From Pectobacterium wasabiae CFBP 3304 (GTDB lineage: Bacteria > Pseudomonadota > Gammaproteobacteria > Enterobacterales > Enterobacteriaceae): a stretch of 64,000 nucleotides of DNA. A program made the translations under genes and the position numbers. Shown here one piece after another: positions 46,583 through 58,014 of the stretch (positions are counted from its first letter, which is position 1; the number at the start of each line of letters is the position of its first letter). Below the pieces are notes generated by a model that saw only the letters and a program-made list of their open reading frames with translations, was not told the DNA's origin and made no database searches. The DNA lies in NCBI RefSeq assembly GCF_001742185.1, contig NZ_CP015750.1:2418001-2482000 (forward strand), given 5' to 3'.

Positions 46583-46598
46583 AGTGACTGTTTTCACA
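46583..46598 (+). promoter_or_regulatory. CRP-binding site upstream of the PTS/sulfatase operon
   Basis: AGTGACTGTTTTCACA matches TGTGA-N6-TCACA at nine of ten conserved positions. It lies about 55 bp before the first antiterminator site, in the right region for a catabolite-controlled promoter. Confidence 0.7.
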
Positions 46599-46651
46599 GA
46601 ATAAAACGTAGAGATAGCTTTTCCTGCGTTAACTTGTTAGAACACAGGAAA

Positions 46652-46682
46652 GGACGTCACCAGAATTTTCTGGGCGAGACCT
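46652..46682 (+). promoter_or_regulatory. RNA antiterminator (RAT) site 1
   Basis: The site reads GGACGTCACCAG, then AATTTT, then CTGGGCGAGACCT. This fits the BglG/SacY-type RAT layout: GG..AC, a short CCAG/CTGG stem and a closing GGC.A.ACCT. Its last bases are the first bases of the terminator stem at 46679-46729, so the two structures exclude each other. Confidence 0.85.
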
Positions 46683-46729
46683 GGATAAAGCAGCGTATAC
46701 CGCACGCTGCTTTATCCAGGTTTTTTTTT
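46679..46729 (+). terminator. Antitermination-controlled terminator 1 before the PTS gene
   Basis: The 18-bp perfect stem ACCTGGATAAAGCAGCGT (46679-46696) with 46704-46721 is followed by nine T. It overlaps RAT 1 by four bases. Confidence 0.93.
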
Positions 46730-46813
46730 GCGTGTTTTCCGGCTGGCCAGTGGATAACAAGCGGGATGATGTGTATTGGGCAGTTGCAGCCATTGACGAA
46801 ACGGGAAGTCATT

Positions 46814-55003: not shown

Positions 55004-56227
55004 ATGAGTCAATCCATTGCTAATTTTCAGTTGATGGCCAAGCCTTCAGGGTCTGTGTGCAATATCGATTGCTCATACTGTTTTTATCTGGAGAAGGAAC
55101 ACCTTTATCCAGAGCGGAAAAGCCGCTGGAAGATGGATGGCGATACGCTGGAAAACTATGTACGCAAGAACATCAGTAGCCAGCAGGCACCTGTTGTTGA
55201 TTTCCCATGGCAAGGTGGTGAACCGACGCTACTGGGCATCGATTTCTTCCGCGAAGCGGTGCGGTTGCAGAACAAATACCGTGGCACAAAGCAGATCAAT
55301 AATTTCTTTCAGACCAACGGCACCAACATTGACGATGATTGGGCGCGTTTTCTGAAAGAGAACCAATTTCTGGTGGGGTTGTCGATTGACGGTGACCGTA
55401 TCAGCAATGATGCACATCGGCTCACGCGGGCGGGGAAAAGCACCTTTGATGACGTGATGAAAGGGCTGGAGGCACTGAAGCGTCACAAGGTTGAGTTTAA
55501 TACCCTGACGGTGGTGAATGCGGAAAACGTGAAACGTCCGATGGATGTTTACCAGTTTCTTAAGCGCATTGGCAGTCGCTATATACAGTTCATCCCGCTG
55601 GTGGAGCGCCGTGCCGCTCAACCGGACGACAACGGACTCGTCCTGATTCAGCCGGATTTTTCGGGTCAGTGCAGCGTGACGGAATGGTCAGTACCCGCAA
55701 AAGCCTATGGTCGTTTCCTGAATACGATTTTTGACTATTGGGTTCAGCACGATCTGGGCAATGTGTTTGTCATGAACTTCGAGCAAACGCTGACCAAAAT
55801 GGCCGGACAGCTTAGTGCCTGCGTCATTAATGAAACCTGTGGTGGCAACCTGATTGTTGAAGCAAATGGTGACGTGTATTCCTGCGACCATTTTGTTTAT
55901 CCCGAAAATAAGCTTGGCAATATTAATCAGGACGATCTGGCATCGCTGGTGAATTCACCGCAAAACCTCGCCTTTGGCGAAAATAAGCGGAAGAACATCA
56001 GCAAAGATTGCCTGAACTGTGAAGTGAAAGCGGTTTGTCATGGCGGTTGCCCGAAGCATCGGTTCGACATCTCCAGCGATGGGCGGCCGAATAAAAACTA
56101 TTTCTGCGATGGATTTAAAACACACCTATTCCATGTTTTACCTCGCATGAATGCCTTGCTCTCTCAATTGGGACGCAAGGAATCGATGAAGAAAATTAGA
56201 AGGAATATAAAAGCAGAATTTTATTAA
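55004..56227 (+). CDS. Anaerobic sulfatase-maturing enzyme (radical SAM)
   Basis: This 407-residue cytoplasmic enzyme oxidises the active-site Ser or Cys of sulfatases to formylglycine before export. The start is ATG 55004, with GAGG five bases upstream. The radical SAM CxxxCxxC motif is C19-C23-C26 (CNIDCSYCFYLEKE), followed by the SAM-binding QGGEPTLLG. Auxiliary SPASM cysteines are in CVINETCGG, VYSCDHFVY and CLNCEVKAVCHGGCPKHRF. It resembles E. coli AslB. Lying directly between a Ser-type and a Cys-type sulfatase, it must serve both; family members such as Klebsiella AtsB and clostridial anSME handle Ser and Cys. Confidence 0.95.
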   Translation: MSQSIANFQLMAKPSGSVCNIDCSYCFYLEKEHLYPERKSRWKMDGDTLENYVRKNISSQQAPVVDFPWQGGEPTLLGIDFFREAVRLQNKYRGTKQINNFFQTNGTNIDDDWARFLKENQFLVGLSIDGDRISNDAHRLTRAGKSTFDDVMKGLEALKRHKVEFNTLTVVNAENVKRPMDVYQFLKRIGSRYIQFIPLVERRAAQPDDNGLVLIQPDFSGQCSVTEWSVPAKAYGRFLNTIFDYWVQHDLGNVFVMNFEQTLTKMAGQLSACVINETCGGNLIVEANGDVYSCDHFVYPENKLGNINQDDLASLVNSPQNLAFGENKRKNISKDCLNCEVKAVCHGGCPKHRFDISSDGRPNKNYFCDGFKTHLFHVLPRMNALLSQLGRKESMKKIRRNIKAEFY

Positions 56228-56281
56228 TGAATGCCACATAGCCTCAGGAGACTGTGGGAATACTGGCATAAAAAGGGAACA

Positions 56282-57964
56282 ATGATGAAAAGAAACAGAC
56301 TGTTGGCCGCAATTACTCTGGCCTGTATGCAAGCTGCGGGGGCACAAGCCGCCGCGACGGCTTCCCCTTCAGCTACGGTGCCGTCAACTGATGGAAAGCA
56401 GCCGAACGTGGTTTATATCATTCTGGACGATCAGCGTTACGATGCGTTCGGCTTCCTGAATTCAGCTATTCACACGCCAAATATGGATAGCATCGCCAAA
56501 GAAGGGACGTATTTTAAGAATGCGTTCGTGACTACTTCGCTGTGCTCCCCCAGCCGTGCCAGTATTCTGACGGGGATGTACGTGCATAATCATGGAGTGT
56601 CGGATAATAATCCATCCGATCTCTCTCATCTAAACTATTTCCCTGAGCTGCTGCGTGACAAAGGCTATCAGACCGGTTTCTTTGGCAAATGGCACTTTGG
56701 CGGCGCAGATAAAACGGCCACCAAAGGCTTCGCTGGCTTCGATCGCTGGGTAGGGCTGCTGGGGCAGGGCAGCTATTATCCGATTGATAACTATGGCAAG
56801 CCGACCATGCTCAATATTGATGGCAAGATGGTGCCGCAAAAAGGCTACATCACCGATGAGCTGACGGATTACGCCGTAGATTGGCTGAACACGCTCGATA
56901 AGAAAAAGCCGTTCATGATGTATCTGTCGCATAAAGGTGTGCACTCTGATTTCCTGCCCGCCAAGCGCCATCGTGGCAGCATGAAAGAAGTGACCTTCCC
57001 GCTGCCGGATACCTATGCCGATACGCCGGAAAACTATGTCGGCAAACCGATGTGGGTGAAGAACCAACGCAATAGCTGGCACGGCGTGGATTATCCCTAT
57101 AACACGGATATGGATCTTCAACAGTATCAACGTGACTACTATGAAACGCTGCGCTCGGTGGATGACAGCGTGGGGCGCGTGCGTGACTGGCTGCAAAAAC
57201 AGGGGCTGGATAAGAACACGATTATCATGGTGATGGGGGATAACGGCTTTATGTTCGGCGAACATGGGCTGATTGATAAGCGTAACGCTTATGAAGAGTC
57301 GATTCGCGTGCCATTGATTGCCTCCGGACCAGGCTTTGCCAAAGATAAAGTCGTGGAAGATATTGTCAGAAACATCGACGTTGCCCCAACGATCCTGGAA
57401 GCCGCAGGTGTTGCCGCACCGAAACATTATGATGGGCAGAGCTTCTGGCGTCTGGGGCTGGATGGTTATAACACGCCGAAGCGTAGCGATTACTTCGTCT
57501 ATGAATATTTCTGGGAATACAGCTTCCCGCAGACGCCAACCACGTTTGCGATTCGGACGCCGGAATACAAATATATTCAATATTACGGCGTGTGGGATAA
57601 AGAAGAACTGTACGATATGAAGAACGATCGAGAAGAGAAGCACAACCTGATCGATTCTACCGACGAGAAGATCGTCAATACCAAAATCGCGTTACGTAAA
57701 AAGCTGTATGAAGAGCTGAGCAATCGGCAGGGTAAAAACGTGATCCCGTATAACCAACGTACTGGGCAAGGGCAGGTTTATCGCCATGAAGGTGCCGGTG
57801 AGCAGCTAGCTCCGTTCCCGCGTGAATGGCTGAAAGGGTACAACCACGAGGAGATTCTTGCTGGATTTATCCCCGATCAGGTCGGTAAAGAAGCGAAGGT
57901 GAAAGCCTCGAATGAAGCCGTGAAGAAGAGCGCGCCGCAGTTAAAAGAACTGATGGATAAATAA
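56282..57964 (+). CDS. Periplasmic sulfatase, Cys-type (glucosamine-6-sulfatase-like)
   Basis: This 560-residue type I sulfatase starts at ATG 56282, with AAGGGA upstream, 54 bp after the maturase. A signal peptide of about 24 residues ends near AQAA. The metal-site start is PNVVYIILDDQRYDAFG. The formylglycine residue is Cys88 in LCSPSRASILTGMYVHNHG, which matches the pattern of N-acetylglucosamine-6-sulfatase relatives (S1_11). FGEHGLIDKRNAYEESIRVPL carries further conserved active-site residues. A charged, Lys-rich C-terminal end closes it. It is the last gene of the operon, followed by a terminator. With the Ser-type enzyme it suggests two sulfate groups, or two substrates. Confidence 0.93.
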   Translation: MMKRNRLLAAITLACMQAAGAQAAATASPSATVPSTDGKQPNVVYIILDDQRYDAFGFLNSAIHTPNMDSIAKEGTYFKNAFVTTSLCSPSRASILTGMYVHNHGVSDNNPSDLSHLNYFPELLRDKGYQTGFFGKWHFGGADKTATKGFAGFDRWVGLLGQGSYYPIDNYGKPTMLNIDGKMVPQKGYITDELTDYAVDWLNTLDKKKPFMMYLSHKGVHSDFLPAKRHRGSMKEVTFPLPDTYADTPENYVGKPMWVKNQRNSWHGVDYPYNTDMDLQQYQRDYYETLRSVDDSVGRVRDWLQKQGLDKNTIIMVMGDNGFMFGEHGLIDKRNAYEESIRVPLIASGPGFAKDKVVEDIVRNIDVAPTILEAAGVAAPKHYDGQSFWRLGLDGYNTPKRSDYFVYEYFWEYSFPQTPTTFAIRTPEYKYIQYYGVWDKEELYDMKNDREEKHNLIDSTDEKIVNTKIALRKKLYEELSNRQGKNVIPYNQRTGQGQVYRHEGAGEQLAPFPREWLKGYNHEEILAGFIPDQVGKEAKVKASNEAVKKSAPQLKELMDK

Positions 57965-57976
57965 TCCACTGCAATA

Positions 57977-58014
57977 AACCAGACGGAGACGTGCTTGTGC
58001 GCCGTCTGGTTTTC
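57977..58014 (+). terminator. Terminator of the sulfatase operon
   Basis: AACCAGACGG (57977-57986) pairs with CCGTCTGGTT (58002-58011), and a short T-rich stretch follows. It lies 12 bp after the last sulfatase gene. Confidence 0.8.

Follow-up and report, generated by a model that had tools for sequence, protein, structure and literature searches.

A putative RNA-antitermination-controlled, beta-glucoside-type PTS cluster with a strain-variable sulfatase module in Pectobacterium wasabiae

Most known cases of BglG-type antitermination come from operons for simple sugars and beta-glucosides, and the canonical ribonucleic antiterminator (RAT) carries the consensus letters GGATTGTTACTG...GGCAAAACC. 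Here we analyzed a 64,000-nucleotide stretch of Pectobacterium wasabiae CFBP 3304 (NZ_CP015750.1, positions 2,418,001 to 2,482,000; hereafter the window), in which a cluster at 46583-58014 brings together a phosphotransferase system (PTS) permease, a BglG-type antiterminator, a LamB-type porin, a DUF1593 protein, two sulfatases and an anaerobic sulfatase maturase (anSME). With Escherichia coli bglGFB and its relatives, whose features are given partly from general knowledge, the locus has in common a CAT-PRD antiterminator, a RAT overlapping a terminator, an IIBCA permease and a CRP-like site. It differs from bglGFB in the letters of its RATs, in a permease scoring below the BglF cut-off, in an antiterminator that often lies elsewhere and in its sulfatase cargo.

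Parts of this combination have been described in other bacteria. In Enterococcus faecalis, the BglG-family antiterminator NagY controls the PTS gene nagE in cis and the distant hylA via a second RAT (PMC9981650); as presented in the accessible part of that paper, this Gram-positive system involves a hyaluronidase-type lyase, whereas the cluster studied here holds sulfatases and a maturase. An accessory region of Streptococcus pneumoniae joins a PTS, a sulfatase and a sulfatase modifying factor (PMC3283741), so islands of PTS, sulfatase and maturase genes as such are already known. That region differs from our locus in its ROK-family repressor and its putative cellobiose PTS, and the accessible text of the report mentions neither an antiterminator nor BglG. 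The chondroitin operon of Proteus vulgaris, a proteobacterium, carries a putative sulfatase with putative PTS genes and, in the available excerpt, differs by its chondroitin lyases and unsaturated glycoside hydrolase, none of which is found in the present cluster (PMC9067506). The heparin utilisation system of Pedobacter heparinus has S1_8 and S1_11 sulfatases, the subfamilies nearest to the two enzymes of our cluster, and they are periplasmic there (PMC10154612), as is predicted here; unlike our cluster, it needs polysaccharide lyases and GH88, and neither a PTS nor antitermination is mentioned in the accessible portion of that report. The first-pass annotation of the window had stated that BglG-type antitermination was not known to control sulfatases. 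In line with this, the accessible texts of the open-licence literature yielded no such report and nothing joining a sulfatase with a BglG antiterminator, a phospho-beta-glucosidase or beta-glucoside antitermination.

With moderate confidence, we read the locus as a RAT-controlled beta-glucoside-type PTS cluster with a module of two sulfatases and a maturase that differs between strains and likely serves the use of sulfated beta-glucosides. Domain and profile searches confirmed the families of the seven genes, all on the + strand (start codons are our choice). The cluster opens with a IIB-IIC-IIA permease of the beta-glucoside subfamily (46814-48766; PTS_EIIB, PTS_EIIC and PTS_EIIA domains), which passes TIGR01995 (715.2 bits vs. 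a cut-off of 614.7) and falls below the equivalog cut-off for E. coli BglF, PRK09824 (653.3 vs. 894 bits), and thus is not a BglF ortholog. It is followed by a LicT/BglG-type antiterminator passing the LicT equivalog cut-off (antiterminator A, 48822-49658; CAT_RBD and two PRD domains), the LamB-type porin (49968-51590; PF02264, 2.6e-78) and a DUF1593/Sde182 nucleoside-hydrolase-like protein, probably exported (51603-53069; Sde182_NH-like domain, 2yhg at 1.4e-88), for which a literature search found no paper naming DUF1593. Then come sulfatase 1, a probably exported Ser-type enzyme with the motif SAPSR (sulf1, 53199-54932; Sulfatase domain, nearest solved structures S1_8), the anSME gene (55004-56227; TIGR03942, 490.6 bits, cut-off 349.45) and sulfatase 2, a probably exported Cys-type enzyme with the motif CSPSR (sulf2, 56282-57964; Sulfatase domain, S1_11-like by nearest solved structures). 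From the permease through sulfatase 2, the intergenic gaps are 55, 309, 12, 129, 71, and 54 nt.

The control elements lie before the permease and before lamB, all on the + strand. CRP-like site 1 (AGTGA-N6-TCACA, 46583-46598, 9/10 consensus bases) precedes RAT1 (46652-46681), whose 3' side is overlapped by an intrinsic terminator (46676-46724; -34.9 kcal/mol for 46674-46730). Ahead of lamB, CRP-like site 2 (GGTGA-N6-TCACG, 49678-49693, 8/10) and a promoter-like TTGAAA-17-TATACT (49711-49739, 10/12 bases) are followed by RAT2, of the same variant class as RAT1 (49752-49781), and an overlapping terminator (49776-49824; -29.6 kcal/mol for 49776-49830). Since a strong terminator stem begins with the 3' end of each RAT, both structures are mutually exclusive. 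Both RATs were recognised by pattern, alignment and covariance model, the latter, built for this variant class, placing RAT1 and RAT2 at E 4e-13 and 1e-12 (both are in its training set) with no other match below E 0.15 in the window. They do not match the canonical letters and read GGACGT...GGCGARACC; in the window genome (G000), the canonical pattern was found at another locus only. Rfam at gathering thresholds gave no RAT at the locus, its sole match in the window being a tRNA. The RAT/terminator modules exceed chance expectation, and the two modules noted in the first-pass annotation were borne out by the covariance model and the alignments. Its one CRP site is indeed seen before RAT1 but is accompanied by a second; as 32 sites of at least 8/10 occur in the window, single CRP-like sites are weak evidence. 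Promoter-like matches in the region are about as many as in shuffled sequences, near the shuffled mean. Site 2 is placed ~60 bp upstream of the start predicted from TTGAAA/TATACT, and this spacing, together with the position of TTGAAA/TATACT between site 2 and RAT2, suggests that the lamB-to-sulfatase genes may have their own promoter. A single transcription unit, as first annotated, therefore becomes doubtful, the RAT2 terminator and the predicted promoter splitting the cluster in two.

Across the genus, for which we compared 25 genomes including that of the window, the pattern of the variant RAT class was found in 23 genomes (27 matches, each with the letters of RAT1 or RAT2, vs. four for the reversed pattern). 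CRP-like site 1, RAT1 and the terminator align in six genomes, with a partly weakened terminator stem in G019 and a paired stem change in the terminator of G015, while CRP-like site 2 and RAT2 align in three, RAT2 being also present in G018 by pattern. Across 19 RATs, 93% of cells are paired in the nine-pair structure, compared with 83% in shuffles, and slid versions of it drop to 20-47% paired. All five pairs of the upper stem vary on both sides, and the covariation score of 0.42 (0.21 in shuffles) was reached in none of 500 shuffles; the sequences being related, aligned with MAFFT and given a hand-set structure, such shuffle counts are not probabilities.

Antiterminator A is present in five of the 25 genomes and adjoins the permease in only five of the 22 that have an intact permease ortholog. 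Antiterminator B, a paralog 60-62% identical to A, is found in 19 of the 25. All 22 genomes with an intact permease have A or B or both, and none of the three others (G003, G007, G022) has either (Fisher 4e-4, shared ancestry ignored). In four of the 19 genomes with B (G004, G011, G017, G019), it lies in a separate GH1-bglG operon with a RAT of the same class (RAT-B) preceded, in all four genomes read, by a CRP-like site of 9/10. We infer that A and B are both able to read the variant RATs, B in trans. An adjacent antiterminator as the constant reader of RAT1 was considered and rejected because it is lacking in 17 of the 22 intact-permease genomes.

The permease and a convergent GH1 gene form the anchors of the locus, and the cargo between them varies. 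The context map comprised 22 other genomes with RAT1, including G003 with its broken permease; G007 and G022, without RAT1, were not drawn. A full-length, convergent 6-phospho-beta-glucosidase gene is downstream in 20 of the 22 mapped relatives (19 in place, farther off in G023); it is broken in G003, and the G015 stretch examined did not show it. The 462-aa GH1 ortholog of G019 passes the 6-phospho-beta-glucosidase cut-off NF007356. In 12 genomes the permease-GH1 interval is empty. The gene order of the window, for which the first-pass annotation had proposed a search in other genomes, recurs as a full set in G015 and G019, with a cargo that varies or is absent in most of the others. G017 and G008 carry sulf1-sulf3-anSME-sulf2 without bglG, and G005 has the same plus an OmpF-like porin; G010 has anSME-sulf2, and G003 has anSME and a partial sulf2 behind the broken permease. 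G014 has bglG alone, followed by a RAT2-like hairpin and terminator with no gene behind. In G018, fragments of anSME and sulf2 persist after bglG-lamB-DUF1593, indicating that the sulfatase module was once present there and then decayed. The slot also accepts other sugar cassettes, as a rafY-beta-phosphoglucomutase (bPGM)-GH65-PTS block similar to that of the window lies between the permease and the intact GH1 gene in G023. Recombination is visible in the permeases of G018 and G017, that of G018 being a mosaic, window-like in its last third and like other strains in its first two thirds, beside the bglG-lamB-DUF1593 cassette. Orthologs of sulf1 occur in six of the 25 genomes, in one copy each and always at this locus, and an intact sulfatase is found at the locus in seven of the 22 intact-permease genomes. 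With several different cargos between the same anchors, the operon as a fixed unit was rejected.

Family-wide, the variant RAT pattern was found in six of 198 genomes, at 10 places (vs. two for the reversed pattern), and two of these genomes belong to the genus itself. In the other four (G435, G445, G487, G538), the RATs adjoin permease, GH1, LamB, DUF1593 or BglG genes. G487 has four of them (L142, 5376-13373), one each before GH1, DUF1593, permease and lamB, with no sulfatase within the 18 kb read. These neighborhoods suggest a core regulon of BglG, permease, GH1, LamB and DUF1593, to which sulfatases are added as optional cargo. The core of our locus looks like a beta-glucoside system. As the DUF1593 gene of G487 is directly preceded by a RAT, it looks like a RAT target itself. 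A locus of the order RAT-permease-lamB-DUF1593-GH1-bglG was also seen in G435 (L143, listed as 49% complete), with many broken frames and four recognisable RATs.

Sulfatase maturases were found at other PTS loci of the genus as well. PTS genes were counted by tblastn similarity (1e-10) to three glucose-superfamily permeases, which covers this superfamily and misses other PTS families. The 25 genomes contain 15 anSMEs over the TIGR03942 cut-off, eight of them at this locus. For 11 of the 15, such a PTS gene is no farther than 6 kb away. The remaining four are 6.2-7.3 kb from one, with G014 at locus 2 at 7.2 kb and three genomes at this locus (G000, G015, G019) at 6.2-6.3 kb; as the flanks of the control extend to about 6 kb, 11/15 is the fair figure for the genus. 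The order-wide control consisted of 38 of 103 listed places outside the genus, i.e., every third one (34) plus four of the same family, and the stretches L155 and L183 end at contig ends. Only two of these 38 anSMEs have such a PTS gene within about 6 kb, both among the 34 and none among the four. One is from the same family (a fourth locus type, see below) and one from another family. The association gives Fisher 1e-6 by gene and 1e-4 by locus type (4/4 vs. 2/38), uncorrected for shared ancestry. The positive of the other family (L174, G151) has the order sulfatase-anSME-GH1-PTS, like locus 3 of the window genome.

At locus 2 (G002, G005, G014), a maturase gene, anSME' (78-80% identical to anSME), and a Cys-type sulf2' (73-74% to sulfatase 2) stand beside a canonical bgl operon, RAT-bglG-PTS-GH1-lamB, with all genes in one direction in G014. 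A RAT and then a terminator directly precede anSME' in all three genomes. In G002 and G005 this RAT was detected at E 7e-4 by a model not trained on them, with one mismatched pair, and in G014 it is of the canonical type (E 3e-3). CRP-like sites of 9/10 also occur in the anSME'/sulf2' region of G002 and G005. Thus, sulfatases and a maturase do lie behind BglG-type RAT/terminators in the window, as first annotated, and a second locus has a RAT/terminator before its maturase gene. Locus 3, at 4.66 Mb in the window genome, has sulfatase, anSME, PTS and GH1 genes in a row with a divergent lamB, and its GH1 also passes the 6-phospho-beta-glucosidase cut-off. The fourth locus type (G002, G011, G015) has anSME beside a glucose-type PTS permease and another sulfatase. 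Its representatives are L148 (G015, 9426-14158), L150 (G011), L151 (G002) and L161 (G270), and their permease is nearest to TIGR02002, below the cut-off. The sulfatase of this type has the motif CMPAR and seemingly no signal peptide, and it is perhaps cytoplasmic, acting after import.

Both sulfatases of the cluster have the PF00884 fold and a C/S-x-P-x-R motif, with a maturase present, as expected of formylglycine enzymes. Eight PF00884 matches were found in the window genome, four with the formylglycine motif: the two at the locus, one at locus 3 (CSPTR) and one CAPSR protein. N-termini resembling signal peptides were seen by eye on both sulfatases and on the DUF1593 protein. The best solved-structure matches of sulfatase 1 are S1_8A/B/C, then N-sulphoglucosamine sulphohydrolase 4mhx, while GlcNAc-6-sulfatase is among the top matches of sulfatase 2. 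In the S1_11 recognition triad, as given in the accessible text, Asp and Arg contact O4 and His contacts O3 (PMC10154612). Sulfatase 2 keeps an Asp-Lys-Arg that we take as the Asp/Arg pair, a provisional assignment as the passage gives no residue numbers; the His of R-H-Y-G-I-R-T in the S1_11 structures 5g2v and 7p24 aligns with Thr in sulfatase 2 and with Met in the G014 paralog. Apart from the Tatumella and Pantoea pairs described below, genes similar to sulf1 at 1e-80 or better are rare in the order, with three of 394, our own included, the other two being 37-38% identical.

Given the type of permease, its pairing with GH1, the presence of LamB and the bgl contexts, beta-glucosides are the likely substrate class. 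CRP and BglG-type RNA antitermination are predicted to switch the cluster on. The LamB-type porin would admit the sulfated glycoside, anSME would mature the sulfatases before export, and the sulfatases would strip sulfate in the periplasm, a location suggested by their signal-peptide-like N-termini. The permease would then import and phosphorylate the freed beta-glucoside, to be split by a 6-phospho-beta-glucosidase. With substrate flow, the permease would stop inactivating the antiterminator, which would bind the RATs and let the polymerase pass both terminators. We infer antiterminator binding, CRP action, substrate, enzyme location and the order of steps from sequence. To our knowledge, no bacterial pathway for sulfated plant beta-glucosides has been described. 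Such compounds do occur, as salicin-7-sulfate has been isolated from willow according to the accessible text of one report (PMC5999357). More tentatively, the locus could belong to a dedicated RNA regulon of this genus of soft-rot bacteria, with its own RAT dialect (GGACGU...GGCGARACC), two interchangeable trans antiterminators and a swappable sulfatase cargo that gives access to sulfated plant beta-glucosides, which we consider possible rather than probable. If our main reading is right, BglG-type antitermination would also govern sulfatases and their activating radical-SAM enzyme, and the repeated joining of sulfatase cargo to PTS systems, several with a phospho-beta-glucosidase, would point to sulfated beta-glucosides as an overlooked nutrient. 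Sister genomes that share the RAT and permease but differ in having sulfatases form a natural experiment through which the question of the substrate can be put directly to the test, and the two antiterminators would offer a clean example of RNA-binding specificity that is maintained in trans.

Several observations weigh against a RAT-controlled cluster for sulfated beta-glucosides, and some of them favor other explanations. Fifteen of the 22 intact-permease genomes have no intact sulfatase at the locus (one keeps sulfatase debris), so permease and RAT there most likely serve unsulfated substrates, probably beta-glucosides given a TIGR01995 permease beside a 6-phospho-beta-glucosidase. Together with an antiterminator adjacent in only five of the 22, this does not fit the one fixed system built around desulfation that was first envisaged. 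In the window itself, all that is left of the phospho-beta-glucosidase at this site is a remnant, on the opposite strand and outside the operon. Two of the five structure measures were ordinary: 57 of 500 shuffles had as many doubly changed pairs, and 266 of 500 had as many types of pair. At locus 2, anSME' is transcribed against the bgl operon in G002 and G005, and a RAT-like stretch seen by eye before sulf2' was given less weight, as the covariance model found none there at E up to 10. At locus 3, neither a RAT of the variant class (the best match, at the chance level of E 0.077, is inside lamB) nor a BglG gene was found; the fourth locus type and G151 yielded no such RAT either, so this mode of control does not extend to all clusters of the kind. 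With four locus types in a single genus, the number of independent events is small. Moreover, two Tatumella genomes and one Pantoea symbiont genome have sulf1-anSME pairs (sulf1 56-69% and anSME about 60% identical) with no such permease in the 10 kb to either side. The sulfatase module could instead be a passenger in a recombination-prone permease-GH1 slot, co-transcribed but meeting another need, such as sulfur scavenging, unrelated to the PTS substrate. The rafY block of G023, the mosaic permeases of G018 and G017, the decay of the module in G018, its partial state in G003 and G010, and sulf1-anSME alone in Tatumella would all fit. We nevertheless hold this to be rather unlikely, because three further PTS locus types of the genus also contain anSME genes, vs. 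2/38 of the places sampled elsewhere in the order, and a RAT directly precedes anSME' at locus 2.

The sulfatase families may hint at another substrate. The pair of S1_8 and S1_11-like enzymes resembles the route of Pedobacter heparinus for GlcNS6S, in which, in the accessible part of the report, an S1_11 enzyme converts 6S-GlcNS to GlcNS and an S1_8 enzyme converts GlcNS to GlcN (PMC10154612). For this reason we kept as a rival a glycosaminoglycan-type salvage in which sulfatases 2 and 1 would remove the 6-O- and N-sulfate groups of GlcNS6S-like sugars, leaving an amino sugar to be taken up by the PTS, as the S1_8 structures nearest to sulfatase 1 and the GlcNAc-6-sulfatase match of sulfatase 2 might suggest. 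However, no polysaccharide lyase, GH88 or amino-sugar gene is among the cluster products (the search was confined to these, not the rest of the genome), the permease and the neighboring GH1 are of beta-glucoside types, a sulf2-anSME pair of this kind recurs at a bgl operon, loci 2 and 3 lack sulfatase 1, and the His of two S1_11 structures lines up with Thr in sulfatase 2; this explanation appears quite improbable. The exact version of the first-pass annotation, a single transcription unit from CRP-like site 1 whose 6-O-sulfatase frees the 6-hydroxyl for phosphorylation by the permease, agrees with the gene order and with an S1_11-like sulfatase 2 that keeps Asp-Lys-Arg. The promoter-like sequence, CRP-like site and terminator before lamB speak against it, as does the retention of the permease without sulfatases in most genomes, and we consider it highly unlikely. 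A sulfated beta-glucoside remains our preferred substrate.

The surroundings of the cluster add a few minor features. A search of a plasmid collection yielded nothing of use. The genome encodes four pectate lyases of family PF00544, including a tandem of three, and accordingly looks plant-associated, as the first-pass annotation had assumed. In the gap between DUF1593 and sulf1, a 33-nt piece on the + strand (53097-53129) matches codons of anSME (55445-55477) at 94% identity (E 2e-9 within the 64-kb window) and is probably the scar of recombination between versions of the locus. A terminator-like hairpin with a T-run follows sulfatase 2 (57979-58013); it was read by eye and not picked up by the terminator scan, and a similar hairpin is present in the permease-GH1 spacers of genomes without cargo. 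Beyond it, the C-terminal GH1 6-phospho-beta-glucosidase remnant of 94 aa (58022-58306, - strand; PF00232 positions 370-452 of 453) adjoins a minus-strand block of rafY porin, beta-phosphoglucomutase, GH65 and PTS genes, remnant and block together covering 58022-63944.

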